Assembly: GCA_003252455.1 (NCBI GenBank)
Contig: QKED01000041.1
Location: 1 to 43,688 of the forward strand
Direction of reading: 5' to 3'
Source of the DNA: Gammaproteobacteria bacterium
Lineage (GTDB): Bacteria > Pseudomonadota > Gammaproteobacteria > Thiohalomonadales > Thiohalomonadaceae
Length of the DNA: 43,688 nucleotides
Below, one piece after another: positions 131 through 18,420 of the stretch; positions within the stretch are counted from its first letter, which is position 1; each line of letters opens with the position of its first letter. The notes beneath the pieces are model-generated. The model was not told the DNA's origin and searched no databases. It saw nothing but the letters and a program-made list of their open reading frames with translations. The position numbers and the translations under genes are program-made.

Positions 131-690
131 TCACCACAGAGAACACAGAAGGCACAGAGAACACCTTGATGCGCCACAGGAGACCGAGGCCACCCTCTTC
201 AACTCTGTGTTCTCTGTGCTCTCTGTGGTGAACACATTGATCAACCGAGTTCACCAAGCTCAGTTCGTAGCCCGGATGCAACGCAGTGGAATCCGGGGAA
301 ACGGGGCGGCCTGCTCCCAGACGGTGGCTGCTCCACGCGAGCTGTTAACCACAGAGAACACAGAGGGCACAGAGAACACCTTGATGCGCCACAGAAGACC
401 GAGGCTGCCCTCTTCAACTCTGTGTTCTCTGTGCTCTCCGTGGTGAACGCATTGATCAACCGAGTCCACCAAGCTCAGTTCGTAGCCCGGATGCAACGCA
501 CTGGAATCTGGGGGAACGGAGCAGCCTGCTCCCAGACGGTGGCTGCTCCACGCGGGCGGTTAACCACAGAGAGCACAGAGGGCACAGAGAGTTCCTTGAT
601 GCGCAAGAGAAGACCGAGACCGCCCTCTACAACTCTGAGTTCTCTGTGCTCTCTGTGGTGAACACATTGTTCAACCGACGCCACCAAGCA
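131..690. repeat. 215-bp tandem repeat array, about 2.6 copies, with long hairpins
   Basis: Copies start at about 131, 346 and 561; the word ACCACAGAG recurs at 133, 348 and 563, an exact 215-bp period. Each copy has two parts. First comes an imperfect inverted repeat of about 30 bases: CACAGAG-rich arm at 131-160, CTCTGTG-rich arm at about 202-233, both ending in GTTCACC/GGTGAAC. Then follows a REP-like palindrome (CCCGGAT 271-277 with ATCCGGG 291-297; in copy 2 the second arm is mutated to ATCTGGG) and a conserved spacer of about 45 bases. The third copy stops before the REP-like part. Both word families are widespread proteobacterial intergenic repeats. The short open frames on both strands here are by-products of the repeat. 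The array ends about 40 bases before the DUF1111 gene. Confidence 0.95.
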
Positions 691-729
691 CAAAAAGATT
701 CACTCAACTTGAACCAACACCAAGCCAGC

Positions 730-2055
730 ATGACCGCCAGCCAACACCTCATCGCCGCCGCCCTGCTCCTACCGAGCCTGGCCCTGGCCAACCCCTACGG
801 CCAACCGGACCCGACGCTCGACGCAGAGGAGCGGATGAACTTCCGCCTCGGCCAGGCGCTGTTCGAGCGGCTCTGGGTCTCGGCCCCCTCCTCGACCCAG
901 GCCGCCGACGGCCTCGGCCCGCTCTACTCCGCACGCGCCTGCGCCAGCTGCCACCAACACAACGGGCGCGGCGCACCACCGGAGCCGAACGCCAAACACG
1001 CCATCTCCTTCACCCTGCGCCTCTCCATTCCGAGCAAAGACACAGACGGCGACGGCTACCAACGCAACACCCCGGACCCGGTCTACGGCCACCAGCTCCA
1101 GGAGTTCGCCGTGCGCGGCCTCGACGCCGAGGGCCGCATCGGCCTCGACTACGAGGAGCAGACCGTCACCTTCGCCGACGGAGAGACCATCACCCTGCGC
1201 CGCCCCGCGTATCGCATCGACGACCTGGCCTACGGCCCACTCCACCCCGAGGTGCGCCTCTCGCCGCGCATCGCCCCGGCACTCATCGGCCTCGGCCTGC
1301 TGGAATCAATCCCAGAGAGTGTGATCCTCGCCATGGCCGACCCCGACGACCAAGACGGCGACGGCATCTCCGGTCGCGCCAACCGCGTGCGCGACCCGGC
1401 GGACGGCGCGCTCAAGCTCGGACGCTTCGGCTGGAAGGGGGGCAACGCCACAGTGGCCGCCCAGACCCAGGCGGCCTTCGCCACCGACATCGGCCTCGCC
1501 GTCCCCTTCCACCCGTCCGGTGAGGGCGACTGCACCGCCGCACAGACGGCCTGCGTCGCCGCCCCCCACGGCACCAGCCCGCAGTTCGACAACCTGGAGG
1601 CGGACGCCCAGGTGACCGGGCTCACCGCCTTCTACGCCGCGCACATCGCCCCGCCCGCACCGCGCGAGGCCGACCACCCCGAGGTGCGCGCGGGCCGCAC
1701 CCTGTTCGCACAGCTCGGCTGCGCCGCCTGCCACACCCCGAGCCAGACCACGGCGGATGGGCGCACCCTCGAACCCTACAGCGACCTGCTGCTGCACGAC
1801 CTCGGCGCCGAGCTGGCCGACCCCGCAGGCGACGGCCTGGCCAGCGGCAGCGAGTGGCGCACCGCGCCGCTCTGGGGCATCGGGCGCAACGCCGAGGTCA
1901 ACGGCCACGCCGTCTACCTGCACGACGGACGCGCCCGCACCCTGCTGGAGGCGATCCTCTGGCACGGCGGCGAGGCCGAAAAAGCACGCGCGCGCGTCGT
2001 CGCCCTCACTGCCGATGAGCGCGCCGCACTCATCCGCTTCCTCCAATCCCTCTAA
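730..2055 (+). CDS. DUF1111 family di-haem c-type protein
   Basis: The protein has 441 residues. Residues 1-20 form a Sec signal peptide ending LALA, so it is periplasmic. Two CxxCH haem c sites are visible: CASCH at 71-75 and CAACH at 331-335. The layout matches DUF1111 (di-haem oxidoreductase-like, often labelled thiol oxidoreductase without firm biochemical support). The ATG at 730 is chosen because it begins the signal peptide; an in-frame start at 646 lies inside the upstream repeat and would add an implausible leader. No strong Shine-Dalgarno is visible. The gene heads a tight group with an imelysin (14-base gap) and a DUF1513 protein. A comparable group (PA4370-PA4373 region) is known in Pseudomonas aeruginosa and is linked to iron. 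The substrate is unknown. Confidence 0.9.
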   Translation: MTASQHLIAAALLLPSLALANPYGQPDPTLDAEERMNFRLGQALFERLWVSAPSSTQAADGLGPLYSARACASCHQHNGRGAPPEPNAKHAISFTLRLSIPSKDTDGDGYQRNTPDPVYGHQLQEFAVRGLDAEGRIGLDYEEQTVTFADGETITLRRPAYRIDDLAYGPLHPEVRLSPRIAPALIGLGLLESIPESVILAMADPDDQDGDGISGRANRVRDPADGALKLGRFGWKGGNATVAAQTQAAFATDIGLAVPFHPSGEGDCTAAQTACVAAPHGTSPQFDNLEADAQVTGLTAFYAAHIAPPAPREADHPEVRAGRTLFAQLGCAACHTPSQTTADGRTLEPYSDLLLHDLGAELADPAGDGLASGSEWRTAPLWGIGRNAEVNGHAVYLHDGRARTLLEAILWHGGEAEKARARVVALTADERAALIRFLQSL

Positions 2056-2069
2056 CCCGGAGAGCCGCC

Positions 2070-3185
2070 ATGCGCCACATCCCCCACCAAGCCATCCACT
2101 ACCTGGGCGCGCTGCTCGGCGGCCTCGCCCTGCTGCTCATCGTCAGCCTCTCGGCCCACGCCGAACTGAGCGACACGAGCCGCGACTGGGCCGGGGCCAA
2201 CCGCGCCGCCGTCGAGCAGCTGATCATCCCCGGTTACCAGCAGTTCGCCACCCAGAGCGAGGCGCTGGTGAAGGCGGTCGACCAGCTCTGCGCCAGCCCG
2301 CGCACCGACACACTGATGCTCGCGCAGTCTGCGTTTCACAGCGCCATGGACGCCTGGCAGGCGGTACAGCTCTACCGCTTCGGCCCGGTGGACGACTACC
2401 TGCGTTACCACCGCATCCAGCTCTGGCCCGACAAACGCAGCACCGGCAGCAAACAGCTCAAGCAGCTCATCGCCAGCGAAGACCGTACCCCGCTCGGCAC
2501 GGACCAGATGCGCCACGCCAGCGCAGGAGTGCAGGGCTTCCCGGCACTGGAGCGCCTCTTGTGGAACAGCGAGCGCAGCGTCCCCGAGGGCTATAGCTGC
2601 GAACTGGCACGGGCGATCAGCAGAAACATCGCGCAGATGGCCGCCGAGGTGAGTGCGGAGTGGCGTGGCGGCAGCCGCCATTTTCAGCAAGTGGTCTACA
2701 CCCCGGGCGAGGAGAACGAGGAGTTCGCCGCCCACCTGGAGGTGACCGCACGGCTGCAGAACAACCTCAACACCGCCTTCCAGTTCATCGCCGAGAGCAA
2801 ACTCGCCGCCCCCCTCGGCAGCGAGGGTGGACGCCCGCGCCTACAGAAGGCGGAGAACTGGCGCAGTCAGCGCTCGCTGCGCAACCTGCGCCTCGACCTC
2901 GACGCTGCAGAACAGCTCTACCGCATCAGCTTCCGCCCACTGCTCGACGACAACGCCGAAGGCCAGGCCGCCGACGCGGCGCTGCTGGCGGCCATCGACA
3001 CGCTGCGCACGGCGCTTGCAGCGCTGCACGAGCGCCCGCTTGAGACGCTGCTCAACGATGCGGCGGCCAAGCCCCAGCTCGATCAGCTACAGGCCGCCGC
3101 CACCGCCCTGCACCACACCTTTGCAACGACCATCCCGGCGGCCATCGAGATGCCGCTCGGCTTCAACAGCCTCGACGGAGATTGA
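2070..3185 (+). CDS. Imelysin family protein (peptidase M75-like, variant motif)
   Basis: The 371-residue protein has an N-terminal hydrophobic segment at about 10-31 ending AHA, consistent with export to the periplasm. The family is recognised from the helical imelysin domain, including AGVQGFPALERLLWN. The usual GxHxxE motif reads G156-F-P-A-L-E161, with Pro in place of His, as in the second imelysin of iron-associated DUF1111/DUF1513 clusters. The peptidase role of M75 proteins is doubtful, and a role in iron or haem handling at the envelope is the usual proposal. GGAGAG at about 2059 precedes the ATG. The stop codon lies two bases before the DUF1513 start, implying one transcript. Confidence 0.88.
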   Translation: MRHIPHQAIHYLGALLGGLALLLIVSLSAHAELSDTSRDWAGANRAAVEQLIIPGYQQFATQSEALVKAVDQLCASPRTDTLMLAQSAFHSAMDAWQAVQLYRFGPVDDYLRYHRIQLWPDKRSTGSKQLKQLIASEDRTPLGTDQMRHASAGVQGFPALERLLWNSERSVPEGYSCELARAISRNIAQMAAEVSAEWRGGSRHFQQVVYTPGEENEEFAAHLEVTARLQNNLNTAFQFIAESKLAAPLGSEGGRPRLQKAENWRSQRSLRNLRLDLDAAEQLYRISFRPLLDDNAEGQAADAALLAAIDTLRTALAALHERPLETLLNDAAAKPQLDQLQAAATALHHTFATTIPAAIEMPLGFNSLDGD

Positions 3186-3187
3186 CC

Positions 3188-4294
3188 ATGCAACGCCGCA
3201 CCTTCCTCTTATCGCTCATCGCCGCCAGCGTCGCCCCGCGCCTCGCCACCGCCGCTACGCCCGCGTTCAAGCCCCAGGCGCACTGGTTCAGCTCTCGCGG
3301 CGACCTGCTCGGCAACTACCACCTGAGCGGCTTCAGCGCCGACGGCAGCCTCGCCTTCGACCTGCCGCTGCCCGCGCGCGGCCACGGCATCGCCCTGCAC
3401 CCGGACGGCACCACCTTGGTCCAGGTGGCACGCCGCCCCGGTCGCTACCTGCTGGTGGTCGACGCCAATTCAGGCGAGGTGTTGCATGAACTCGAATCCG
3501 CCGAGGGGCGGCACTTTTGCGGCCACGGCCTCTTCTCCGCCGACGGGCGTACCCTCTACACCACAGAGAACGACTACGAGGGGAAGCGCGGCGTCATCGG
3601 TGTGCGCGACGCCACGCGCGGCTATCTCCAGGTGGGTGAGTTCGACAGCCACGGCATCGGCCCCCACGACCTGCGCCTGTTGAGCGACCAACGCACCCTG
3701 GTGGTGGCCAACGGCGGCATCCTCACCCACCCCGACACGCCGCGCGCCAAGCTCAACCTCGACACCATGCAGCCCTCGCTGGTCTACCTCGACCGCCGCG
3801 ACGGTGCACTGCTGGAGCAGGTCGCCTTCCCCGCCACCGAGCACCAAAACAGCATCCGCCACTTGGCGGTCGGCGCGGACGACACGGTCTGCCTGGTGAT
3901 GCAGCACCAGGGCCCACGCAGCGAGCACCCGCCGCTTATCGCCCTGCACCGACGCGGTGAGGCGCTGCAACCCTGCACCATCCCTGATGAACTGCACGCG
4001 CGCATGCGCAACTACTGCGGCAGCGCGACTGTCGACCCGAGCGGCGCGCTGTTCGCCGTCTCTTCGCCACGCGGCGGGTTGGTCACCTATTGGAGCGCCA
4101 AAGCGGGAGAGTTCCTCGGCCACACCGAACTGGCCGACGGCTGCGGCATCGCCGCCGGTGAGCTACCGGGCGAGTTCATCCTCAGTAGTGGCCGTGGAGA
4201 TCTGGTTCGACACCGCATCGGCGGTGGCGCTGATCACGCGATCGTCCTCGACCTGCCAGACGCCCGTTGGGACAACCACATGGTGCGTGGCTAG
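3188..4294 (+). CDS. DUF1513 family Tat-exported protein
   Basis: A protein of 368 residues beginning MQRRTFLLSLIAASVAPR, a twin-arginine signal. The rest has the repetitive GH.-L.PDG..L pattern of a seven-bladed beta-propeller, for example GHGIALHPDGTTLV and HGLFSADGRTLY, and matches DUF1513. The ATG at 3188 is preferred over a TTG six bases upstream because GGAG sits eight bases before it and it starts directly at the RR motif. DUF1513 genes regularly accompany imelysin and DUF1111 genes, so the protein probably works with them in the periplasm. No enzymatic activity is established for the family. Confidence 0.88.
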   Translation: MQRRTFLLSLIAASVAPRLATAATPAFKPQAHWFSSRGDLLGNYHLSGFSADGSLAFDLPLPARGHGIALHPDGTTLVQVARRPGRYLLVVDANSGEVLHELESAEGRHFCGHGLFSADGRTLYTTENDYEGKRGVIGVRDATRGYLQVGEFDSHGIGPHDLRLLSDQRTLVVANGGILTHPDTPRAKLNLDTMQPSLVYLDRRDGALLEQVAFPATEHQNSIRHLAVGADDTVCLVMQHQGPRSEHPPLIALHRRGEALQPCTIPDELHARMRNYCGSATVDPSGALFAVSSPRGGLVTYWSAKAGEFLGHTELADGCGIAAGELPGEFILSSGRGDLVRHRIGGGADHAIVLDLPDARWDNHMVRG

Positions 4295-4708
4295 ACACAT
4301 TCACCCCAGAGAACAGCGCGATGCGAGTGATGCGTTGGACCACGCGGCAGAGCCGCAAACACAAGGTGCCGAGGCAGAGCCTCGGCACAAGACAGACCAC
4401 GAAGGTCACGAAGGCGTGATGACGAACTGAGTGCGCCTCGTTCCCGCGCTCCGCGTGGGAATGCAGACCTAGCCGGAACCTACCCCGTGCGGGCGACAAG
4501 CACGGTACACACTCCCACGCAGAGCGTGGGAGCGAGAAAGCGCGGACCTGCAACTGCGCCTCGTTCCCACGCTCCGCGTGGGAATGCAGACCTAGCCGGA
4601 ACCTACCCCGTGCGGGCGACAAGCACGGTACCCACTCCCACGTAGAGCGTGGGAGCGAGAAACAGTAACACCAGAACCTAGCACGCAAGTCCACATAAGG
4701 AGACGACC
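4295..4708. repeat. Intergenic palindrome island with a 123-bp direct repeat
   Basis: There is no gene here. Positions 4366-4388 hold a perfect 9-bp hairpin (GTGCCGAGG, loop CAGAG, CCTCGGCAC). Then come two near-identical units at 4432-4540 and 4555-4663, period 123. Each unit has three palindromes: TTCCCACG-CTC-CGTGGGAA type (4441-4461 and 4564-4584), CCGTGC/GCACGG, and CTCCCACGC-AGA-GCGTGGGAG type (4512-4532 and 4635-4655). CACGAAGGTCACGAAGG at about 4399 resembles another common dispersed word. None of the hairpins has a clear T-run. They look like dispersed REP-type elements that may stabilise or end the upstream mRNA. The peroxidase Shine-Dalgarno AAGGAG lies just beyond. Confidence 0.85.
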
Positions 4709-5845
4709 ATGCAGCGCCTCATCACTTTCAGCCTGCTCGCCGCCTTGAGCGGTACACTCCACGCAGCGCCACGCCTCGCCAGCCCAGAGGCGCTGGGCCG
4801 TACGCTCTTCTTCGATAGCAGCCTCTCGCTCAACCGCACCCAGTCCTGTTCCACCTGCCACGACCCGGCCAAGGGCTTTACCGACCCACGCGACAACGGC
4901 GTGCAGGGCGCCCTGTCGCTCGGCGACGACGGCCACTCCCTCGGCGACCGTAACGCCCCGAGCGCCGCCTATGCACGCTTCAGCCCGCCCTTCGGCAAAG
5001 ATGCCGAGGGTGAGTGGCATGGTGGTCAGTTCCACGATGGGCGTGCGGCGGACCTGGCGGCGCAGGCCGGTGGCCCACCGCTCAACCCCATCGAGATGGG
5101 CATGCCGGACAAGGCGACGCTGGTGGCACGTCTGCGTGACAACCCGCTCTACGCCGAGGCCTTCCCGGTGTACTTCGGCGCGGGCGTGCTCGACGACCCG
5201 GAGCGCGGCTATGCGGCCATGACCCAGGCCATCGCCGCCTTCGAGCAGACCGACGAGTTCGCCCCGTTCGACTCCAAGTACGACCGCCACCTGCGCGGCG
5301 AGTACCAGCTCACCGAACAAGAGGAGCTGGGCATGACGCTGTTCTTCTCCGACCAGTTCACCAACTGCGCCCTCTGCCACCAGCTGGAGCGTACCCCCGC
5401 GGCCCCCGGCGAGACCTTCAGCAACTACCGCTACTTCAACATCGGCGTGCCGGTGAACCGTGCGGCACGCCTGGCCAACGGCCTGGGCGAGGGCCACGTC
5501 GATCAAGGCCTGCTCGACAATCCGGCCATCGACGACCCGGCCCAGGCGGGCAAGTTCAAGGTACCGACCCTACGCAACGTGGCGGTGACCGGCCCCTATA
5601 TGCATAACGGGGTGTTTCAGGACCTACGCACGGTGATCCTCTTCTACAACAAGTACAACTCGAAGAGCGCCAAACGGCAGATTGACCCAGAGACGGGGAC
5701 GCGTTGGGCGGCACCCGAGGTGGCACAGAACCTCGCGCTGACCGAGCTGGAGCACGGTCCGGCGCTGGACGACAAGCGCATCGATGCACTGGTGGCGTTT
5801 CTCAAAACGCTGACCGATGCACGCTATGAGGGGTTGTTGCAGTAG
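4709..5845 (+). CDS. Di-haem cytochrome c peroxidase (CcpA/MauG family)
   Basis: The 378-residue protein has a signal peptide (about 1-19, ending LHA). Two haem c motifs are present: CSTCH at 47-51 and CALCH at 220-224. TGPYMHNGVF near 297 supplies the Met-containing segment typical of the high-potential haem side, and the spacing and length fit bacterial di-haem peroxidases. These reduce H2O2 in the periplasm with electrons from small c-type cytochromes; some relatives instead modify proteins. AAGGAG eight bases upstream supports the start. It lies downstream of the DUF1111/imelysin/DUF1513 group on the same strand, separated by a repeat island, and is convergent with nifE. Confidence 0.93.
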   Translation: MQRLITFSLLAALSGTLHAAPRLASPEALGRTLFFDSSLSLNRTQSCSTCHDPAKGFTDPRDNGVQGALSLGDDGHSLGDRNAPSAAYARFSPPFGKDAEGEWHGGQFHDGRAADLAAQAGGPPLNPIEMGMPDKATLVARLRDNPLYAEAFPVYFGAGVLDDPERGYAAMTQAIAAFEQTDEFAPFDSKYDRHLRGEYQLTEQEELGMTLFFSDQFTNCALCHQLERTPAAPGETFSNYRYFNIGVPVNRAARLANGLGEGHVDQGLLDNPAIDDPAQAGKFKVPTLRNVAVTGPYMHNGVFQDLRTVILFYNKYNSKSAKRQIDPETGTRWAAPEVAQNLALTELEHGPALDDKRIDALVAFLKTLTDARYEGLLQ

Positions 5846-5937: not shown

Positions 5938-7311
5938 TCACTCCCAGGGGGCGGCCTTGCGCACGGCGGGCCAGACCGGGTTCTCGATGGTCAGGGCGAG
6001 CTGGCGCGCCAGTTCGCTCATGCCGTCGTAACCGGCGTAGCCGAATTCACGCTCCTGGTTGATGTCGAGGAAGGGCACGCGCGCCTTGAGTGCGGTGTAC
6101 ATGTTGCGCCCACCGGCGATGAGGATGTCGACCTTGTACTCGTCGACGATACCGAGCAGCGCCTTGGGGCTGCCGTCTTCGATCATCTTGGTATCCGCGC
6201 CCATCAGCTCGGTGATGCGCGCCTTGTCCTCTTCGGTGGACTTCTTGGTGCCGGTGGCGACCACGGTGAGGCCGAGGTCCTGCATCGCGCCGATGATCGA
6301 CCAGGACTTCACCCCGCCGGTGTAGAGCAGCACGCGGCGCCCGTCGAGGCGCTCGCGCCAGGGCTGCAGCAGCTGGTCCATGCGCGCCTCTTCACGCTCG
6401 ATGAGCGCCTCGGTGCGTGCGGTGAGGTCGGGGTCGTCGATCAGGCGAGCGATGTCGCGCAGCGCGGCGGAGACGTCGCGCACGCCGTAGAAGCTGCCCT
6501 CGAACCAGGGGATGCCGTAGGCGTCCTTGAGCTTGCGCGCCACGTTGACCATCGCCTTGGCGCAGACCACCATGGTCACCTCGGCACGGTGCATCGCCTG
6601 CACCTCCTTGAAGCGCGCGTCGCCCGAGAGGGTGCCGAGCACGCGGATGCCGAGTTCATCGAACAGCGGCATCACGTGCCACAGCTCACCGGCGATGTTG
6701 TACTCGCCGATGAGGTTGATGTCGTGCACCTTGTAGGGCAGGTTCTGCGCCGCGGGCGGCAGCGGGTCGGGCTCGCGGGTGCCGATGACGTACTTGAACA
6801 TCGCCTCGCCGGCGATGCGGTTGCCGAGGTTCTTGGTGCCATAGAAGCCGGCCCCGTCGATGTGCACGACCGGCACGCCGAACTTCTCGGTGGCGGCCTT
6901 GGCCACGGCGTCGACGTCGTCGCCGATGAGCGCCGGGACGCAGGTGTTGTAGATGAACACCGCCGCCGGGTTCTTGGTCTCGATGGCCTGCTTGATGGAG
7001 TGGAACAGGCGCTTCTCACCGCGCCCCATGACGATGTCCTGCTCGGTGAGGTCGGTGGTCATGCCGGTGCGCCAGAGGGTCGGGCCGCTGGAGCGGGTGC
7101 CGCGATTGTCCCAGGAGGAGCCAGCACAGGCGATGGGGCCGTGGACGATGTGCGCCACGTCGGCGATCGGCAGCAGGGCGATCTGCGCGCCGTCGAAGGC
7201 GCAACCACCGGCGGTGGCGCCCGGCTTGGGGCGCGCACAGCCCGACTTCTCCTTGTGGTTGTGTTCGCACGCAGGCTCGTCGAGCAGTTCGGCGATCTGG
7301 GACTGTTTCAT
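5938..7311 (-). CDS. nifE: Nitrogenase FeMo-cofactor scaffold subunit NifE
   Basis: A full-length 457-residue NifE. The N-terminus carries the signature [19 protein letters not shown]. Cys37, Cys62 and Cys124 fall at the numbers reported for the [4Fe-4S] ligands of Azotobacter vinelandii NifE, so NifEN cluster binding should be intact. NifE normally pairs with NifN as the heterotetramer that matures the L-cluster into the cofactor precursor. Here nifN is not downstream: a convergent peroxidase gene follows within 93 bases, so nifE is transcribed alone. A sigma-54 promoter and two NifA-type sites lie upstream. GGTGAG precedes the ATG. I see no frameshift. Confidence 0.96.
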
Positions 7312-9599: not shown

Positions 9600-9980
9600 C
9601 TACTCGGCGAGTTCGGCGAGACGCGCCTGGGCGCGGCGGGCACTGCTCAGGAGCATGCCGAGGCTGACGCTGGTGTCGGCGAGCACGGTGAGGACGCGCT
9701 GACGGTTGATGCGCAGATAGAGCATCATGCCCAGTTCGTTCTCGACGATGACGTTCTTGCAGTTGCCTTGACGCCCCTCGTAGGCGGCGGATTCGGCCAG
9801 ACCGAGCAGGGAGCTGGTAATGGCGGCGATCTTCTCCTTGGGCAGACCGCTCTTCAGCACGTGGTGCACCACGAAGCCGTCATCGCTGGCGATGAGTGCG
9901 CCGACCGTGCCGTGACAGTTGTCGAGCAGCTCCTGGAGTTCTTCTTCCGGGTTGGTGCGGAAGGGTTTGACGGTAAACAT
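9600..9980 (-). CDS. Roadblock/LC7 domain protein (MglB-like)
   Basis: A protein of 126 residues, essentially a single Roadblock/LC7 domain: LQELLDNCHGTVGALIASDDGFVV, a central helix KIAAITSSLLGLAESAA, then strands NVIVENELGMMLYLRI and RVLTVLADTSVSLGML. Roadblock proteins dimerise and bind Ras-like GTPases, for instance MglB as activator of MglA. AAGGAG eight bases upstream fixes the start. It is the last gene of a three-gene minus-strand unit behind a GTPase and a degenerate-receiver protein, so it is probably that GTPase's regulator or scaffold. The order recalls actinobacterial conservons, which lack such a receiver-like gene. Confidence 0.88.
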   Translation of the reverse strand: MFTVKPFRTNPEEELQELLDNCHGTVGALIASDDGFVVHHVLKSGLPKEKIAAITSSLLGLAESAAYEGRQGNCKNVIVENELGMMLYLRINRQRVLTVLADTSVSLGMLLSSARRAQARLAELAE

Positions 9981-9992
9981 GCGGCTCGCTCC

Positions 9993-10544
9993 TTACTTGC
10001 CCAGTGCGGTGGGTGGGTACTCGATGCTCAGCATCAGGGTGTCGATGAGCATCAGCACATCGCCACCACGGCGGATGTCTGCACTCATGATCGGCAACTC
10101 GCGTGGCCGACCGATGCGCGCATGATAGTCCTGTATGGTGGGACCTGCACCCTGTCCCAGACGCGAGACCCCCACCACGGCGGCCAAACCCCCGGTATAG
10201 GGGGCGAATCGCGCCAGATAGAACTGCAGGTCGCCGATGGGGTCGGGGCGGGAGTTATCGATGAGATAGATCACCCCGAGGGCGCCACGGCAGAGCATCT
10301 CCCACATGTGCGCGAAGCGCTCCTGGCCGGGGGTGCCGTAGAGGCGCAGCACCTCGGTACGGCTGAGGGTCAGCTCGCCGTAGTCCATGGCCACCGTGGT
10401 GGTCACCTTCTGTTCGGCCACCTGGTCGCTGGCGTAGGCCTCGGTAGAGACCGGCACCACCTCGCTGATGGCGCGGATGGCGGTGGTCTTGCCCGCCCCC
10501 ACCGGCCCGGCAAAGACCACCTTGTGCTCGCGAAAACCGCTCAT
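9993..10544 (-). CDS. Ras-like small GTPase, module 1 (MglA/CvnD-like)
   Basis: A protein of 183 residues. The P-loop GPVGAGKT spans 13-20. The switch I region carries VTTTVAMDYG (47-56), and the switch II region GTPGQERF (70-77) replaces DxxGQ in the manner of conservon and COG2229 GTPases. The guanine-specificity motif (N/T)KxD is not recognisable: the expected strand reads AVVGVSRLGQ, without the Asp. The start ATG (10544) overlaps the stop of the upstream gene as ATGA, implying translational coupling; the longer open frame upstream is rejected for this reason. The paralogue at 16754-17302 has the same organisation. It is likely cytoplasmic and works with the Roadblock protein 12 bases downstream. 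Confidence 0.88.
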   Translation of the reverse strand: MSGFREHKVVFAGPVGAGKTTAIRAISEVVPVSTEAYASDQVAEQKVTTTVAMDYGELTLSRTEVLRLYGTPGQERFAHMWEMLCRGALGVIYLIDNSRPDPIGDLQFYLARFAPYTGGLAAVVGVSRLGQGAGPTIQDYHARIGRPRELPIMSADIRRGGDVLMLIDTLMLSIEYPPTALGK

Positions 10545-11533
10545 GAGGCGAGCCCCAGGCGGCTGCGGATGAGGCTCAGCGTCTCGCGCAACAGACCGCC
10601 GCTGGCCGCACTGCGTAGCGCCGACTGCACCGGCGCCACCTCCAGCCAGTGGCACAGGCGCGCGGCGTTGATCGAGGCGACCACCTCCTCGCGCCCGAGC
10701 CGACAGCGCTCCATCAGCCGCTCGATGGAACAGGGGGCGGCCACCATCATGGCCGCCATGCGCCGCTGCTCGGGGCTGAAGGGGAGGCTACCGAAGTCGG
10801 GCCAGCGATTGAGGCCGTAGGCCCCCTGTACCGGCAGATCGGCGAGCAGGCGGCCCCGGCTGTGGTAGGTCGAGAAGTGCCAGAGGAGCCGCTCCAGCGG
10901 TACCCGGGTACCGTGGTCGAGATAGTGCAGCGGCATCTCGCCGGCGCTCGTGCGCGTCCCCTCCAGGGTCCAGTGGTCCACCATGGCGTCGAATTCACCC
11001 GGCTCCACCGTGGGCAGGTGGGCCATGCCGCTGACAAAGTCGAGAAACAGCAGCGGCAGGCGCGGCCCCTCCAGGCTCAGGCGCGATTTGCCCTGCATCG
11101 CCTGCAACTGGGCGAAGCCATCCTCCGCGCCGCGGGGGCTCGGGGCGTCGAGGGGCTCGGCCCCACGCGCGGGGATGAGGGTGTGCAGGGTCGGGACCGG
11201 GGTGCTCGCGGGGTGCTGTAGCGCCTCCAGCAGGTCGCGTACCGCCCGGCCACGAAACGGCTTGGCCAGCCAGCGGGCCGGGTCCAGCCCCTCGGGGGGC
11301 AGGGTCGCACAGGCGATGCAGAAGAGCCCCGCCCCCTGCAGACGGTGCCAACGCTCGGCACCCGCCGCACTCTCCAGGTCGATGAACAGCAGGTCGCTAC
11401 GCTCGGAGTTCTCAAAACGCAGGCGCATGCCGAGGTTGTCGCTCATAAACTGCATGAGCGAGCGCAACACCAGGGAGTCTTTATCCTGCATCGCCAACAG
11501 AGAGATGGAAAAATCTTTACGCGTCGTGGGCAC
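10541..11533 (-). CDS. Degenerate-receiver protein of GTPase module 1
   Basis: A protein of 330 residues without a family I can name. The GTG at 11533 is chosen because GGAGG (11544-11540) precedes it by six bases and the resulting N-terminus aligns without gaps to the paralogue at 17299-18420 over residues 1-93; an ATG at 11587 is the alternative. Residues 8-105 look like a response-regulator receiver: alternating strands and helices, LLFID52, and AKPF with K91. The middle is a variable linker. The C-terminal third (RWPDFGSLPFSPEQRRMAA, then a helical segment ending LCHWLEVAP) may be a winged-helix-like domain. The stop overlaps the GTPase start. Its role as GTPase partner is inferred from position. 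Confidence 0.75.
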   Translation of the reverse strand: MPTTRKDFSISLLAMQDKDSLVLRSLMQFMSDNLGMRLRFENSERSDLLFIDLESAAGAERWHRLQGAGLFCIACATLPPEGLDPARWLAKPFRGRAVRDLLEALQHPASTPVPTLHTLIPARGAEPLDAPSPRGAEDGFAQLQAMQGKSRLSLEGPRLPLLFLDFVSGMAHLPTVEPGEFDAMVDHWTLEGTRTSAGEMPLHYLDHGTRVPLERLLWHFSTYHSRGRLLADLPVQGAYGLNRWPDFGSLPFSPEQRRMAAMMVAAPCSIERLMERCRLGREEVVASINAARLCHWLEVAPVQSALRSAASGGLLRETLSLIRSRLGLAS

Positions 11534-11995
11534 CCGCGACCTCCAGAGACTCAACGACAGGGCCGATATCCTGTCAAAAAAACCCATACAGTCAACCGCT
11601 TGTAATCCGCTCAGGGATCGAGGCCCGCGGCTCGACCCGGGCCGTTTCGGCGGTGTGGACGGACCTTTGTCAGCCCCGCGCAGGGGGATCACTTTCGAGC
11701 CGTATCGTGCCGCTGTAGAGTGGCGCGGGCTGCACCGCATATACCCGGGAGGGTCGATGCAGAGCTCGACCCCCTGGATATAGGCGATCTAACCGGCACG
11801 TACACCTCATCAAGTGGGCCAGCCACCCGCCGAGGGGCGGAGTACTTTAGCGGTTTGGACTGTTATTCTCAGGGCCCTTATAGACCATCCAGGTGCTGAA
11901 AACTGTGTGCGCGCTCTCTTACGTGAACGCGAACTATTCTTACATATATATCAGCATATTCGCACATTCTAAATAACCAACCCACGAGGCCCGGC
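11534..11995. other. Gene-free region with a large hairpin
   Basis: 462 bases between a minus-strand gene start and the DUF486 gene. The clearest structure is an imperfect stem of about 18 bp: left arm 11739-11757 ending GGGTCGA, eight-base loop, right arm TCGACCCC...ATATA at 11766-11782. No T-run follows on either strand. The last 60 bases before DUF486 are AT-rich with TATATA at 11945-11950, a possible -10 element without a convincing -35. I see no small gene. Confidence 0.5.
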
Positions 11996-12346
11996 ATGTC
12001 CACCCTCACGACCACGACCCTGTTGTTGCTGGTCAGCAACCTCTTCATGACCTTCGCCTGGTATGGCCACTTGAAGAACATGGCCGACAAGCCCTGGTTC
12101 ATCGCCGCCCTGGTGAGCTGGGGCATCGCCCTGTTCGAGTACCTGTTGCAGGTACCCGCCAACCGCATCGGCCACAGCGAGCTGAGCGTGGCGCAGCTGA
12201 AGATCCTGCAAGAGGCGATCTCCCTGACGGTGTTCGTCCCCTTCGCCATCCTCTACCTCAAGGAGCGCCCCCACCTCGACTACCTGTGGGCGGCGCTCTG
12301 CCTGATGGGGGCTGTCTATTTCATGTTCCGTGCCAAACTGGCCTGA
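11996..12346 (+). CDS. DUF486 family small membrane protein
   Basis: A protein of 116 residues with four predicted membrane segments (about 5-21, 34-52, 73-89, 95-111). The SNLFMTFAWYGHLK segment and the KERPHLDYLWAALCLMGAVYF end match DUF486, a four-helix family distantly related to DMT transporters. No substrate is known. Its 3' end overlaps the convergent GGCT-like gene by 31 bases. ATG at 11996 is the only sensible start; the preceding CCACGAGG gives a weak ribosome site. Confidence 0.88.
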   Translation: MSTLTTTTLLLLVSNLFMTFAWYGHLKNMADKPWFIAALVSWGIALFEYLLQVPANRIGHSELSVAQLKILQEAISLTVFVPFAILYLKERPHLDYLWAALCLMGAVYFMFRAKLA

Positions 12347-12777
12347 ATCGCCCCGGGGCGGCGCGGTGCGCGTCCCCCCCAGTGGTGGAGAAAATCACCG
12401 GAGGGGATGCGCTTGAGCCCCAGCGTGGGGCGTGCATAGAGATAGACCCAGGCGCGCTGGCGACTCTCGTCGGCCAGCACCACCTCGACCTCGCAGCGGT
12501 GGTACTCATGGGGCCGCGCCGATCCGGGGGCACACCCCTCGTAGCGGTCCAGCGCCGGAAAGAGCCGTGCGGGCGCCGCCACCCGATAGAGCTCCCCCTG
12601 CACGAACTCCCCCGCACGCGTCGAGGGGACGGCGCCGGGGTAGCCGTCGAGCAGGTAGAGCCGTCCGGGCAGGCGTGCGGGGGCGGCATAGTGGCAGTGG
12701 CGCGCCAGATGGCGGTACATCGGGGTGTCGGTGGCCCGCATCAGGGTGCCGTAGACGAATAGGTACTCGCTTGACAT
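12316..12777 (-). CDS. Gamma-glutamylcyclotransferase-like (AIG2/GGCT) protein
   Basis: A protein of 153 residues opening MSSEYLFVYGTLM; YGTL at 9-12 is the substrate-binding loop of the GGCT/AIG2 fold. The usual catalytic acid is probably Glu80 in ALDRYEGC. The length matches single-domain bacterial members. These enzymes typically release 5-oxoproline from gamma-glutamyl amines or peptides, but many bacterial homologues are untested. The gene is convergent with DUF486 and shares 31 bases of coding DNA with it. Confidence 0.85.
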   Translation of the reverse strand: MSSEYLFVYGTLMRATDTPMYRHLARHCHYAAPARLPGRLYLLDGYPGAVPSTRAGEFVQGELYRVAAPARLFPALDRYEGCAPGSARPHEYHRCEVEVVLADESRQRAWVYLYARPTLGLKRIPSGDFLHHWGGRAPRRPGAIQASLARNMK

Positions 12778-12873
12778 GTTTGTCTCTTTGAAACAGGGGT
12801 GAGCTCCTGGGCACGCTCGGGCACGGCCTTATGGGCCTATCCCGCACACCGAGAGCCTTGGTCACTTACTAGG

Positions 12874-12904
12874 TTGAATCCCGACTCTGACCTGCTAGTT
12901 TAAT
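12874..12904 (+). promoter_or_regulatory. Possible sigma-70 promoter for the receiver gene
   Basis: TTGAAT (12874-12879) and TTTAAT (12899-12904) with a 19-base spacer, about 160 bases upstream of the receiver start. The boxes are reasonable but the spacing is longer than the preferred 17. It would drive the receiver, binding-lipoprotein and kinase genes. Confidence 0.35.
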
Positions 12905-13064
12905 AGTTCAGCCGTCTACAAATTCTCCGCACAACAGGTCGGACGAGGCGGTGCTGATGGTAACGATAACAAGATCGCCGCCACCCGTTGGCGCCTACGC
13001 TGGCAACACCGTACGCAACCGCGATGCCAGATCGACTCACAGAAGAACCATGGGAAGCCACACC

Positions 13065-13472
13065 ATGCAAACCAAACACCCCAAGCGCGTACTCATCGTC
13101 GACGACGACTACGACACCGTCGAATACCTCGCTGCGATGCTCAAACTGGAGGGCTACGAGACCCTCACCGCCACCAGTGCAGCGGAGGGCTGGGCGCAGT
13201 TCCGCCACCGCCGTCCCAACCTCATCCTCACCGACCTGCGCATGCCTGGGCGCAACGGTGAAGACCTCATTTACGAGGTGCTCAGCCAGGGTGCGGAGTG
13301 CCCCATCATCGCCATGTCCGGTGGCTACGACAAGGCAGAGCTGCAACTGGAGATGGCCAACGCCCTCGGCGCGAATCTGGTCCTCGGCAAGCCGATCAAC
13401 CGCACCGCGCTGCTCAACGCGGTGCAGCAGCTGATCGGCTCCCCTACCAGCTCCGAGGCCTTCAGCGCCTGA
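13065..13472 (+). CDS. Stand-alone receiver (response regulator) protein
   Basis: A protein of 135 residues consisting only of a receiver domain. It has the acidic pocket VDDD (12-15), phospho-acceptor Asp57 in ILTDLRMP, the Ser of AMSGG and Lys in LGKPI, so it should be phosphorylatable. There is no output domain; CheY-like proteins of this kind act by protein-protein contact or as phosphorelay intermediates. ATG 13065 follows GGGAAG by seven bases; ATG 13050, adding five residues, is also possible. It lies 54 bases upstream of the PhnD-like gene and is probably co-transcribed with it and the hybrid kinase, its likely partner. Confidence 0.9.
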   Translation: MQTKHPKRVLIVDDDYDTVEYLAAMLKLEGYETLTATSAAEGWAQFRHRRPNLILTDLRMPGRNGEDLIYEVLSQGAECPIIAMSGGYDKAELQLEMANALGANLVLGKPINRTALLNAVQQLIGSPTSSEAFSA

Positions 13473-13526
13473 CCCCGTGCCGCTGCGTCTAGGCCTCCAT
13501 ATGCCGTCTGGGGGGCGATATCCTGC

Positions 13527-14435
13527 ATGATCCGCCTCGTGCTGTTGCTCTGCGCGTCGCTCCTCGCCGGTGGCTGTCACCACGAGGAGTCCGCCACGGC
13601 GCCGAAGGGACCCCAATACGAGGCGCGTCCCACCCTCGTCCTGCCCACCTACCGGCTGGCGGTACACCCGCTCTACAACCCGCTGAAGCTGACCCTGGTC
13701 TACCAGCCCCTGGTCGACCACCTCAACGCCACCATCCCCGAGGCGCACTTCGAACTGGAGGCCTCGCGCGACTATCAGGCGTACGAGGAGAAGATCCGCC
13801 AGCGCCACACCGCCCTGCTGCTGCCCAACCCCTGGCAGACCCTCCAAGCGATGAAGGTGGGCTATCGGGTGATCGCCATGGCCGGTGACCCGGCGGAGTT
13901 TCGTGGCCTGTTCATCGTGCGCCGTGACAGCGATATCCAGACGGTGGGCGACCTCAAGGGGCGGGTGGTGAGCTACCCCTCCTATACCGCCATGGCCGCC
14001 TGCATCATGCCGCAGTGGTACCTACACACCCAGGGGCTCGACGTGCAGACACAGACCACCAGCCACTATGTAGGCTCGCAGGAGTCGGCGATCCTCAACG
14101 TCCTGCTCGGCGAAAGTGCGGTGGGGGTCACCTGGCCGCCCCCCTGGCGCCAGTTCGTGCGAGACCGCCCGCGCGACGCCGCCCAGCTCAAGGTGATCTG
14201 GGAGACGCCCCCCCTGCTCAGCAACGCGGTGATGGTGCGCGACGACATGCCCGAGGCACTCGCCCTACGCGTGCGCACGGTCCTGCTCGGCCTGCACCAA
14301 GAGGAGGCAGGGCGCGCCCTCCTGCGCACCCTGGAGACCTCGCGCTTCCACCCCGCCGATGACCGGAGCTACGCCGTGGTAGAGGAGTTCATCACCCAAT
14401 TCGAGCACGAGGTGCGCCTGGTGACCACACCATGA
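13527..14435 (+). CDS. PhnD-like periplasmic binding lipoprotein
   Basis: A protein of 302 residues. A lipoprotein signal ends LLAGGC17. The mature part follows the phosphate/phosphonate-type binding-protein pattern: LAVHPLYNPLKLTLVYQPLVDHLN, then LLLPNPWQTLQAMKVGYRVIAM, GLFIVRRDSDIQTVGDLKGRVVSYPS and VGSQESAILNVLLGESAVG. No transporter permease or ATPase is adjacent. Instead its stop overlaps the kinase start (ATGA), which suggests a ligand-sensing subunit for the kinase rather than a transporter component, as found for other PhnD-type proteins linked to sensors. The ligand cannot be predicted. Confidence 0.87.
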   Translation: MIRLVLLLCASLLAGGCHHEESATAPKGPQYEARPTLVLPTYRLAVHPLYNPLKLTLVYQPLVDHLNATIPEAHFELEASRDYQAYEEKIRQRHTALLLPNPWQTLQAMKVGYRVIAMAGDPAEFRGLFIVRRDSDIQTVGDLKGRVVSYPSYTAMAACIMPQWYLHTQGLDVQTQTTSHYVGSQESAILNVLLGESAVGVTWPPPWRQFVRDRPRDAAQLKVIWETPPLLSNAVMVRDDMPEALALRVRTVLLGLHQEEAGRALLRTLETSRFHPADDRSYAVVEEFITQFEHEVRLVTTP

Positions 14436-16747
14436 TCCTACCGACCCTGCACCGCCTGTTCCGCTGCACCCTCAGCTGCACCCTGCGCCGCCAGCTTATT
14501 ATCAGTATCGCCGTGGTACACGGGGTCTTGATGTCGCTGTTCATCTGGGACCTCACCGAGCGCCAACAGGTGATGCTGCTGGAGGAGGAGGCGGGCTTCG
14601 CCAAGGCGCTCTCCTTCAGCATCGCCAACTCCGCCGCGGGCTGGGTGGTGGCACGCGACTACTACGGCCTACAGGAGCTGATCGACGCCCAGCGCCGCTA
14701 CCCGGAGCTGGCCTTCTCCATGATCCTCGACGCCAAGGGGCGCGTGTTGGCGCACAGCGACCTGAGCCAACTCAACTACTACGTCACCGACCTGCCCCAG
14801 GAGGTCGCCCCCGCCCTGCTGCGCCTCGACGATCAACGCGTCGATGTGGTCACCCCGATCATCGTCGCCGGCCTGCACGTGGGCTGGGTGCGCGTGGGGC
14901 TGGACCAGGATCGGGTCAAGACCCGTCTCGACGAGGTGACCCGAGACGGCATCCTCTACGCCCTCACCGCCATCCTCATCGGCACCCTCATCGCCTGGTT
15001 CATGGGCACCCGCCTGACCCGCAGCCTGCACGCCATCCGCAACTGTACCGACGCGGTGATGAACGGCGACCTGCAGCGGCGCGCCAATGTCGAGAGCAAC
15101 GACGAGGTGGCCTATCTGGCCAAGGCCTTCAACAACATGCTCGACAGCGTGGCCACCTCGCAAGAGAAATTGCGCCGCAGCAAGGAGCGCTTCGACCTGG
15201 CCATGCAGGCCTCCAACGACGGGCTGTGGGACTGGGACCTGAACAACGACAAGGTCTACTACTCCCCACGCTGGAAGCAGATCCTCGGCTACACCGACGA
15301 AGAGCTGGAGAACAGCCTGGAGACCTGGTCCCGGCTGGTGGACGAGGAGGGGCGCAACGCCGCGCTGGAGATGATCGCCCAGTGTCGGCGTGGGCAGCGC
15401 GACGGCTTCAAACTCAACTTCCGCATGCAGCACAAGGACGGGCACTGGGTCGACATACTCACCCAGGCGATCATGGTGCGCGACGCCCAGGGGCAGCCGC
15501 AGCGCCTGGTCGGCACCCACTCCGACATCAGCGAGCGGTTGAAGACCGAGCGCTCGCTACGTCACGCCCTGAAGATGCGTGCCGTGGGCGAGCTGACCGG
15601 AGGCATCGCCCACGACTTCAACAACATACTCGGCGCCATCATGGGCAACCTGGAGCTGCTCAAGCTCAGCGTGGGCGAGGACGAGACCCTGCAACACCGC
15701 CTCGACGTGGCCCTCAAGGGCACCGAACGCGGTGCGGCACTGACACGCAAACTGCTCAACTTCTCCCGTGGGCAGCCGGAGCAGCTGGAGAATGTCGACC
15801 TCAACGCCACCATCCACAAACTCCAGGAGCTGATGGTGCGCTCACTCACCCCGGCGATCCGCGTCATCACCAACCTCCAGGAGGCGGTGTGGCCGGTGGA
15901 GCTGAACGCGGGGGAGGCGGAGGATATGATCATGAATCTGATCATCAACGCCCGTGATGCCATGCCCGACGGCGGCATCATCACCCTGGAGACACGCAAC
16001 ACCCTGGTCGATGCCGCCTTCACCTCGCTCCACCCGGAGGTGCAACCCGGCGAGTACGTGCAGTTCGACATCAGCGACAGTGGTGTCGGCATCCCCAAGG
16101 AGTATCAGGAGCGTATCTTCGACCCCTTCTTCTCCACCAAGAAGGCGAGCAAGGGGACCGGCCTCGGGCTGAGCATGGTCTACGCCTTCATCAGCCGTCA
16201 CGGCGGTCACATCCTGCTCTACTCCGACCCCGGATACGGCACCAGCTTCCACATCTACCTGCCACGCAGTCGGCACGCCGTCGAGGCGCTGAACGCGCCT
16301 GCAACCCAAGATATGCAGACCATCGAGCGCGGCGACGAGACCATCCTGGTGGTGGACGACGAGGAGAGCCTGGCCGAACTGGCCAAAGACACCCTACAGG
16401 GGTTCGGCTACACCATCCTCCAGGCGAGTAGCGCCGAAGCGGCACTGCAGCGCCTGACCGACGGCACGGAGAAGATCGACCTGGTGTTCACCGATGTGAT
16501 CATGCCGGGCAGTTTCGATGGCTGCGAACTGGCCGGCCTCATCAGCAAATACTGGCCAGAGGTGCGCGTACTGCTGACCAGCGGCTACACCGGCAAACGC
16601 GACCGGGAGGACCCGCTGATCAAACGCTGCCTGCGCCAGCGCCTGCTCACCAAACCCTACAGCCGCCAACAACTGGCTCAGGCCGTACGCCGGGTGCTCG
16701 ACGCCCCGCCACGCAGTGACGAGGATGAGTCCATAGTGGAGGATTGA
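14432..16747 (+). CDS. Hybrid sensor histidine kinase (HAMP-PAS-HisKA-HATPase-REC)
   Basis: A protein of 771 residues. Transmembrane segments at about 22-42 and 173-194 enclose a periplasmic domain of about 130 residues. HAMP follows (about 195-248), then a PAS domain with PAC (about 256-378), a HisKA domain with phospho-acceptor His394 in GGIAHDFNN, and a catalytic domain with N506 in [17 protein letters not shown] and GTGLGLS. A C-terminal receiver carries VVDDEE and Asp688 in VFTDVIMP. All key residues are present, so it should autophosphorylate and pass phosphate to its own receiver. The ATGA overlap couples it to the PhnD-like lipoprotein. Its target may be the upstream stand-alone receiver. 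It is convergent, by six bases, with GTPase module 2. Confidence 0.93.
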
Positions 16748-16753
16748 AGGGCC

Positions 16754-17302
16754 TCAGCCCCCCTTATAGGGGAACTCCAGGCTCAGCATCAGCGTATCGA
16801 TGAGCATCAGCACATCGCTGCCGTTACGGATGTCGGCGCTGAGGATGGGCAGTGGCGTAGGCCGCGCCAGGCGCCGGTGGTACTCCTCGATGGAGGGGCC
16901 GACCCCGTGCTGGAAACGGGTCACCCCGACTACCGCCGCCTGCCCCTCGGTGAGGGGGGCGAAGCGGTCGAGATAAAAGGCGAGGTCGGAGATGGGGTCG
17001 GCGCGTGAGTTGTCCATCAGAAAGATGGTGCCCATGGCGCCCCGACAGAGCATCTGCCACATGTGCGAGAAGCGCTCCTGCCCGGGGGTGCCGTAGAGAC
17101 GCAGCACCTCGGTCTGACTCAGGCTCAGCTCGCCGTAGTCGAGGGCCACCGTCGTGGTCTCCTTCTGCTCGCGCACCTCGTCGCTGGCGTAGGCCTCGGT
17201 GGAGATGGGGGTCACCTCGCTCACGGCGCGGATGGCGGTGGTCTTGCCCGCCCCGGTGGGACCAGCGAAGACGATCTTGTGCTCTTTGTATTTCGTACTC
17301 AT
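16754..17302 (-). CDS. Ras-like small GTPase, module 2 (MglA/CvnD-like)
   Basis: A protein of 182 residues, closely similar to the GTPase at 9993-10544 along its whole length. P-loop GPTGAGKT, switch region TTTVALDYG and GTPGQERF are all present. The guanine-specificity strand reads VVGVTRFQHG, again without the (N/T)KxD Asp. The start ATG at 17302 overlaps the stop of the upstream receiver-like gene as ATGA, the same coupling as in module 1. Unlike module 1, no Roadblock gene follows; the next gene is the convergent kinase. It may share the module 1 Roadblock protein, or act without one. Confidence 0.88.
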   Translation of the reverse strand: MSTKYKEHKIVFAGPTGAGKTTAIRAVSEVTPISTEAYASDEVREQKETTTVALDYGELSLSQTEVLRLYGTPGQERFSHMWQMLCRGAMGTIFLMDNSRADPISDLAFYLDRFAPLTEGQAAVVGVTRFQHGVGPSIEEYHRRLARPTPLPILSADIRNGSDVLMLIDTLMLSLEFPYKGG

Positions 17303-18420
17303 CGGGCCAACCCCAGGCGCCCACGGATCAGGCTCAGTGTATCGCGCAACAGGCCACCACCGAACAGCCGCTGGCTGGCGTTGGGTGGCGCACTCCTCAA
17401 CCAACCGAGCATGTCGGCGCAGTTGATGCAGGCCACCACGGTGTCACGGGGCAGGGCGGAGATCTGTGCCAGCTCACTGATGGTGCTCGGCGCCGCCACC
17501 ATCACCGCCGCTAGGCGCCGCTCCTCCACCGTGCACTGCATGGCCCCGAAGTCGGGCCAACGGTTGAGGCCGAAGGCGAGCTTGGTATCGAGCCCATCGA
17601 GTAGCTCGCCCTGACTGTGGCTCATGGCGAAGAGCCAGTAGAGACGCGCCAGGGAGATGACGCTGCCCTGCTGCAGGACGCCGCTGGCGAAGGGGTCGGA
17701 CTGACCATAGGTGAGGCGCGCGCCCTCCAGGCTCCAGTCGAAAAAGGAGTCCTCTGCCGCATCGTGCCCCAACTCCGGCAGATAGGCCAGGGCCCGATCA
17801 CGGTCGACGAAGAGGGTCGGCAGGTGCGGCCCCTTGATGGCGATCTTCGGGCGCTCGCGCAGCAGGCGCAGCATGGAGAAGGCGCGCACGGACCCCTCGC
17901 CGACACCCGCCTCACGGCTACCGGCGGCGGAGTCCGAGATCATCTCCACCGGCATGCGCGGGGGGGGGACGGCGCTGGGCATCGGCTTGGGCGGGGGCGG
18001 CGCACTGGCCACCGCCGTCACCGCCTGGGCGGTGGCCGTGGCAAGTCGCGCCGCCGTGGCACTGCTCGCCTGCGCCACGGCGGCGGGGCTCTGCAACCAG
18101 CTCTGCATCTCCAGCAGCAGCTCGCGCACCCCACGCCCACGAAAGGGGATGGCCAACCACTGCTGCTCGCCGATGTGCGCCGGGCGTTCCGCCGAACAGG
18201 CGATACAGCGCGCCGGACCGTGATTGAGACGCTCCCAGGCGAGCCGCCCCTCGGGGCTCTCCACCCCGACCATCAACAGCGCGCTCTGCTCTGGATTGAC
18301 GAAACTCAGTTCGAGATCGAGGCTGCTACTCATGAACTGCATGAGTGAGCGGAGGATGAGCGTCTCCTTCTCATCGATACCGACAAACGAAACCTTCAGG
18401 GTTGGCTCTGTAACACTCAT
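17299..18420 (-). CDS. Degenerate-receiver protein of GTPase module 2
   Basis: A protein of 373 residues and paralogue of the protein at 10541-11533. ATG 18420 follows GGGGGAGAG. Residues 1-93 align without a gap (shared LRSLMQFMS, CIAC, PFRGR.VR.LL). Compared with module 1 the putative phospho-acceptor is Gly52 and the receiver Lys is Ile91, so this domain should not be phosphorylated. An Ala/Pro-rich linker (about 120-175) is longer than in module 1. The C-terminus (LFVDRDRALAYLPEL, FGLNRWPDFGAM, ERRLAAVMVAAPSTI.EL) is conserved between the copies. No named family is recognised; function is inferred only from its coupling to the GTPase. Confidence 0.75.
   Translation of the reverse strand: MSVTEPTLKVSFVGIDEKETLILRSLMQFMSSSLDLELSFVNPEQSALLMVGVESPEGRLAWERLNHGPARCIACSAERPAHIGEQQWLAIPFRGRGVRELLLEMQSWLQSPAAVAQASSATAARLATATAQAVTAVASAPPPPKPMPSAVPPPRMPVEMISDSAAGSREAGVGEGSVRAFSMLRLLRERPKIAIKGPHLPTLFVDRDRALAYLPELGHDAAEDSFFDWSLEGARLTYGQSDPFASGVLQQGSVISLARLYWLFAMSHSQGELLDGLDTKLAFGLNRWPDFGAMQCTVEERRLAAVMVAAPSTISELAQISALPRDTVVACINCADMLGWLRSAPPNASQRLFGGGLLRDTLSLIRGRLGLAR

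Follow-up and report, generated by a model that had tools for sequence, protein, structure and literature searches.

Two X-MglA modules on the minus strand

The window analysed here (the whole 43,688-nucleotide stretch of contig QKED01000041.1, from assembly GCA_003252455.1 of a gammaproteobacterium of the family Thiohalomonadaceae) contains a duplicated Group 3 MglA system, in which two small-GTPase modules are split by unrelated genes. Both modules are on the minus strand and, in that reading order, they are X2-G2 (18420-16754) and X1-G1-R1 (11587-9600), where X denotes a receiver-like protein, G a GTPase of the MglA family and R a roadblock protein. X1 (10541..11587) consists of a receiver fold, a linker and a C-terminal winged-helix region, as judged from the open reading frame (ORF), structure models and motif columns; a second in-frame ATG at 11740 is an alternative start. 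It is followed by G1 (9993..10544), with a GTPGQ motif, a degenerate G4 (SRLG) and DIR at G5, and directly after G1 comes R1 (9600..9980), an MglB-like roadblock/LC7 protein and putative GTPase-activating protein (GAP; Robl_LC7 E 1.5e-9). X2 (17299..18420), recognised from its ORF and its homology to X1, has a receiver-like N-terminus, a proline/alanine-rich linker and, at the C-terminus, a region with homology to the corresponding part of X1, and G2 (16754..17302) again has GTPGQ and DIR, with TRFQ as its degenerate G4. Both GTPases were assigned with the help of a tree. At both X/G junctions the stop of X and the start of the GTPase overlap in a literal ATGA. An initial annotation of this DNA had described two same-strand modules of this gene order with ATGA overlaps, and the ORFs, the junction sequences and the identities given below bear this out. 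R1 is the only roadblock gene adjoining either module; there is none beside G2, where the next gene is a convergent kinase. A scan for promoters and terminators gave no signal exceeding that of shuffled sequences.

Group 3 MglA systems of beta- and gammaproteobacteria were defined by Wuichet and Sogaard-Andersen (2014; PMC4316618). According to the available part of that paper they comprise an unnamed conserved protein, predicted to have a receiver-like N-terminus, a variable linker and a winged-helix C-terminus, an MglA with GTPGQ, a G4 often without its lysine, a threonine in place of the Group 1 arginine finger and a G5 of DAR with a conserved arginine, and one or two coupled MglB proteins. 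The window matches this gene by gene, with a receiver-like/winged-helix protein, then a GTPGQ MglA with a degenerate G4 and then a roadblock, except at G5, where both GTPases retain the arginine of DAR and change the alanine, and in the roadblock-less X2-G2, which falls short of a complete Group 3 system and is best described as a second copy. It also differs in having two X-MglA pairs to a single roadblock gene, a sensor block between them and loss of the receiver motifs from X2. GTPGQ is found in 81 of the 84 aligned GTPases, G1 and G2 included, with GSPGQ in the other three. Near the G2 motif, threonine replaces the Group 1 arginine finger (TTTVAMDYG in the G1 protein and TTTVALDYG in the G2 protein), and the G4 of both departs from [NT]KxD and has no lysine. 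The view in the initial annotation that the first gene belongs neither to MglB/MglA nor to conservons as known is not upheld: X is a component of Group 3 systems, and its pairing with MglA is already known from what is available of PMC4316618.

The same annotation had been reminded of MglB/MglA and of conservons. The first likeness stands insofar as the GTPases are of MglA type and G1 is accompanied by R1, though a roadblock is present in one module only; the second does not fit. Myxococcus xanthus MglA/MglB with RomR (Group 1) likewise combines an MglA-type GTPase, a roadblock GAP and a receiver-domain regulator. Group 1 proteins, however, have TVPGQ and an intrinsic arginine finger and the response regulators that interact with them are encoded away from mglA, to go by the accessible portion of PMC4316618, whereas X is adjacent here; since G1 and G2 have neither TVPGQ nor that finger, a Myxococcus-type MglA is ruled out. 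Actinobacterial conservons (CvnA-D, Group 2) also have a GTPase with a roadblock partner and two-component-like proteins in a conserved operon. The window's kinase, in contrast, is on the other strand and is not linked to the modules by conservation, and since neither module has a kinase gene next to it on its own strand, an operon of CvnA kinase, CvnB, CvnC and CvnD was also rejected, CvnC not having been searched for by profile.

X1 and X2 are 41% identical and G1 and G2 72-73%, so that both pairs are paralogues and not chance resemblances. In the large GTPase tree, which is midpoint-rooted only and whose bootstrap had not settled, G1 and G2 are sisters (support 100/100) on a long branch, from which we take the pair to be a lineage-specific duplication; a 99/91 branch groups them with 23 short-operon loci. 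Their named relatives are gamma- and betaproteobacteria. A third locus, on another contig of the same genome, encodes X3, an MglA with ITRTD and two roadblock-like proteins (one matched by Pfam), and its MglA falls in a different group of the tree. MglA of this type is present in 4 of 20 genomes of the family, counting the window's own. Close pairs of MglA genes recur in four genomes (G051, G272, G180 and G253). In G253 the order is X-G-X-G-R, but a quick tree, in which some branches are weak, does not place the two GTPases of G253 together, so that the window's X-G pair probably arose separately. A profile search for solved MglA structures returned only eukaryotic Rab/Sec4 chains at E 1e-8 and was of no use for grouping. 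On a further contig of this genome (L105, 5468-8241) lie three genes for roadblock-domain proteins, of which the two larger (353 and 390 aa) have N-termini that look receiver-like by eye; that contig has no MglA match.

Receiver fold and probable winged helix of the X proteins

Neither X1 nor X2 has a Pfam match at E 1, and the label 'receiver-like' given to them at the outset gains its support from structure. The model of X1 (predicted local distance difference test, pLDDT, 83.9; predicted template-modelling score, pTM, 0.56) has a receiver fold at residues 22-129, with a best Z of 11.1 (root-mean-square deviation, rmsd, 3.3 over 104 aligned residues), though a search by Foldseek alone found nothing at E 0.001. 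Models cover X1 only, and the fold of X2 is taken from its homology to X1. To follow the receiver motifs, 53 X proteins were aligned, namely X1, X2 and 51 of the 75 usable proteins from related loci. The phospho-acceptor column is Asp in 46 of the 53, the beta5 column is Lys in 41 and the Pro that follows is present in 52, with Ser or Thr at the beta4 position in 33. X1 retains both Asp70 and Lys109 (69 and 108 in the numbering of the model). X2 has Gly in place of the Asp and Ile in place of the Lys. Membership among the PATAN/DUF4388 proteins was considered and rejected, as no such Pfam match was found at E 0.1 among the 53, whose weak Pfam matches are scattered and each confined to one or two proteins; a more distant relation may exist.

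As the receiver part dominated searches with the full-length structure, the C-terminus of X1 was modelled separately. The resulting model (pLDDT 81.1) includes a winged helix. A large part of the first 80 residues was modelled less confidently (block means 52-77) and is left unassigned. The winged helix of X1 and X2 is less certain than the receiver fold. The nearest folds are chains of the GATOR1/SEA complex (Z 6.5-7.8; at best 7.8, rmsd 2.8, 72 aligned), which we take to be NPRL2/NPRL3. A winged helix of RNA polymerase III (Z 6.8) and one methyltransferase (Z 5.9) were also matched, while ArsR and MarR types reached at most 5.8. All Foldseek E values were 0.14 or worse and a Z below 8 can reflect a common arrangement, and the likeness is a lead only. 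NPRL2/3 consist of a longin domain and three winged helices, and longin domains are relatives of the MglB roadblocks (PMC3521125, as far as its available part goes). The C-terminus of X1 resembles their winged helices; set against their tandem array with a longin N-terminus, X1 shows, at the level of fold, one similar winged helix and a receiver at its N-terminus.

Across the 53 X proteins, hydrophobic residues predominate in the third helix of this fold, with Val in 48 and Phe in 47 at two positions and a mean of 0.57 Lys/Arg per 13 residues. DNA-reading helices would usually carry more Lys/Arg than this. In X1 the helix has a more polar composition, with 2 Lys/Arg and 2 Asp/Glu. Judged by its sequence, the winged helix of X does not resemble that of a typical DNA binder.

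Distribution, longer operons and neighbouring genes

The linkage of X to MglA was examined in the best 80 of 509 loci from a scan of named genomes and in a set of 370 genomes of the class; in the latter, scoring was confined to the few best candidates of each genome, which makes absences soft, and the profile cut-offs (MglA E 1e-25, X E 1e-6) were our own choice. MglA adjoins X, within about 0.4 kb, in 78 of the 80 loci; the two exceptions, L025 and L044, are cut off by the end of the record at the point where X would be expected. Roadblock homologues follow MglA in related loci. MglA was found in 72 of the 370 genomes and X in 84; both were found in 69, against 16.3 expected, leaving three with MglA and no X. 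In one genome (G122) X and MglA are fused in a single ORF of 513 residues (L158:1637-3175). The fusion and the 78 of 80 loci argue that X and MglA act as one unit. In other ORFs a protein-kinase domain precedes MglA, as recognised by Pfam (L012 and L119), by Pfam with the MglA profile (L110 and L113), by an HRD motif with the profile (L154) and perhaps in L115, which is cut. These kinase-MglA ORFs, whose MglA is Group 3-like, adjoin X.

Many loci have a longer operon. A second, divergent roadblock-like gene accompanies MglA in 50 of the 80, and these 50 also include a PhnD-like gene in 42, a TPR gene in 45 and a PAS gene in 44; of the eight that lack PhnD, at least L037 and L075 are cut by the end of the record. 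In L060 Pfam confirms both the PAS and the Phosphonate-bd domain (E 4.6e-40, in the PhnD-like protein at L060:10248-11015). Pfam matches the second roadblock only weakly (E 0.0039 in L060 and 0.13 in L033), and the TPR match of L024 is under its Pfam cut-off. In 24 aligned operonic PhnD-like proteins, considering ATG starts, the nearest ATG is a few residues before a TVSPDF-like motif; this leaves no room for a signal peptide, and the protein appears from its sequence to be cytoplasmic. A profile of the operonic PhnD gave strong matches (E 1e-75 or better) in 17 of the 370 genomes, 15 of them on the same strand as MglA and at most 4 kb from it and the other two in genomes without an MglA match. 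At E 1e-30 there were 21 genomes, and the remaining four have weaker matches away from MglA. The available part of PMC4316618 does not mention the TPR, PAS and cytoplasmic PhnD-like additions.

Between the two modules of the window is a block of three genes on the plus strand, as the initial annotation had stated and Pfam confirms. These encode a receiver-domain protein without other recognised domain (12951..13472; Response_reg E 4e-21), a PhnD-like lipoprotein (13527..14435; Phosphonate-bd PF12974 E 4.2e-51, with a lipobox-like start by eye) and a hybrid histidine kinase (14432..16747) with sCache, HAMP, PAS, HisKA, HATPase and receiver domains. Two further ORFs can be added to that description, a gamma-glutamylcyclotransferase-like one on the minus strand (12777-12316) and a small one on the plus strand (11996-12346) whose product looks membrane-bound by eye. 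Elsewhere in the window, inspection of translations suggests a NifE-like ORF (nitrogenase cofactor assembly; 5938-7311, minus strand) and, at 646-5845, an ORF run with di-haem peroxidase-like and imelysin-like members, perhaps an iron-uptake operon.

Proposed working and alternative explanations

We think it probable, with a good deal of room for doubt, that the duplicated Group 3 system consists of a receiver-regulated X1-G1-R1 and a second copy, X2-G2, and that it works as follows. The receiver of X1, with its Asp and beta5 Lys kept, would take a signal, most simply a phosphoryl group, and X1 would relay it through direct contact of its C-terminal winged-helix region with the neighbouring GTPase, so that the state of the receiver sets the GTP-bound share of MglA. 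R1 would act as the GAP that stimulates hydrolysis. Because X2 has lost both Asp and Lys, module 2 should be independent of the signal, with G2 probably sharing R1, and the system would have a regulated and a constitutive output. Activity of type IVa pili is the most likely output: every one of the 72 MglA genomes has PilT, as do 317 of the 370 overall (Fisher p 3.8e-6). In Snodgrassella the mglA belongs to Group 3, and a strain with a mutated orphan mglB differs in colony morphology and in gut competition, according to the accessible part of PMC11112851.

Several observations weigh against this proposal. No kinase was found for X. The G4 Asp is lost in G1 and G2, and their guanine specificity is therefore only presumed. 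The acidic residues after beta1 are not kept as a pair in the aligned X proteins, and the receiver Asp or Lys is absent from many X proteins of the short-operon clade too. PilT is common in the class and genome size confounds the link to pili, as small genomes without both may explain part of it; the Snodgrassella mutation, as described in the portion of PMC11112851 available, hits the orphan mglB and not X or MglA. The co-occurrence of GTPase and receiver-like genes raised in the initial annotation is seen in most loci, in 69 of the 72 MglA genomes and in the one fusion, yet 15 of the 84 genomes with X have no MglA match. By position, 51 of 122 merged X matches have no MglA within 400 bp and 32 of 105 MglA matches, many of them low-scoring, have no X within that distance. 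Re-reading 17 of the 51 X regions gave an MglA-profile match in six (L110, L113, L115, L117, L119 and L120), four of them inside kinase ORFs; that of L115 is weak and cut, and L117 has no small-GTPase Pfam match at E 0.01. No MglA was found in the other 11, and X can thus exist without MglA. Two of these 11, L109 and L111, are operons in which the TPR gene, X and both roadblock genes remain while an MglA ORF is missing between X and the roadblocks.

The reading given in 2014 (PMC4316618, in its available part) was that Group 3 systems control transcription: X would be a DNA-binding response regulator whose activity is set by MglA. A receiver followed by a winged helix is indeed the classical response-regulator layout, and the C-terminal model does contain the winged helix. 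We nevertheless regard this as unlikely, given the mostly hydrophobic third helix (more polar in X1, with its two Lys/Arg) and the GATOR1/SEA folds that come ahead of ArsR and MarR types by a small margin; the X-MglA fusion also suits contact between proteins. It is also quite unlikely that X2-G2 is a copy in decay that retains little function. Loss of the receiver Asp and Lys, the missing roadblock and the degenerate G4 would all be expected of such a copy; against them, both ORFs are intact, the ATGA coupling is kept and the loss of the G4 Asp is common to 16 other aligned GTPases. G2 moreover keeps GTPGQ and stays at 72-73% identity to G1 while X has fallen to 41%, which suggests selection on the GTPase.

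The initial annotation had suggested a signalling circuit feeding the GTPase switch; lipoprotein, hybrid kinase and receiver would then act on both modules, and the cluster would be one circuit. The genes are physically clustered, with only 6 bp between the ends of the kinase and G2, and the longer Group 3 operon elsewhere has a PhnD-like protein of its own. The block is, however, on the opposite strand. At E 1e-60 or better, 13 of the 370 genomes, the window's included, have an orthologue of the window's lipoprotein, and MglA is in three of these genomes against 2.5 expected (p 0.48); the sensor part of the window's kinase was matched beside all 14 further loci read (L127-L138, L143 and L144). 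The lipoproteins thus track the sensor kinase and not MglA, and the block was rejected as part of the system. Nor was the window's lipoprotein accepted into the operonic PhnD family, whose apparently cytoplasmic proteins give a profile that does not match it, and the genome has 13 Phosphonate-bd matches, several of them beside sensor kinases. One circuit is on this evidence highly improbable, and the three genes look like bystanders.

A bolder extension of the favoured receiver-regulated scheme would see in X a bacterial version of the NPRL2/NPRL3 arm of GATOR1. Rag GTPases are held by roadblock proteins; X would be a receiver-gated winged-helix regulator that, with roadblocks, controls MglA, two-component signals would enter a Ras-type switch directly, and the cytoplasmic PhnD-like, PAS and TPR proteins of the longer operon would add nutrient or redox sensing. 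We hold this to be decidedly unlikely as it stands; if true, bacteria would have a parallel to the nutrient sensing that works through Rag GTPases. No paper testing X was found, and none on kinase-MglA fusions, on the TPR, PAS and PhnD additions or on a link to NPRL2 was among the matches listed, most subscription journals being outside the search. Several points look new relative to the literature searched: that the duplication is split, that one copy has lost its receiver motifs, the parts added to the operon, the two kinds of fusion, the NPRL2-like lead and the likely wiring.

Group 3 systems are spread through beta- and gammaproteobacteria, reaching 72 of the 370 genomes of the class by profile, yet X1 and X2 match no Pfam family. 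Many of the operons add a PhnD-like protein seemingly without a signal peptide. The receiver motifs are kept in most sampled X proteins and lost in one paralogue of this genome, and such a natural pair of a regulated and an unregulated module in a single genome would let the role of the receiver be tested directly.

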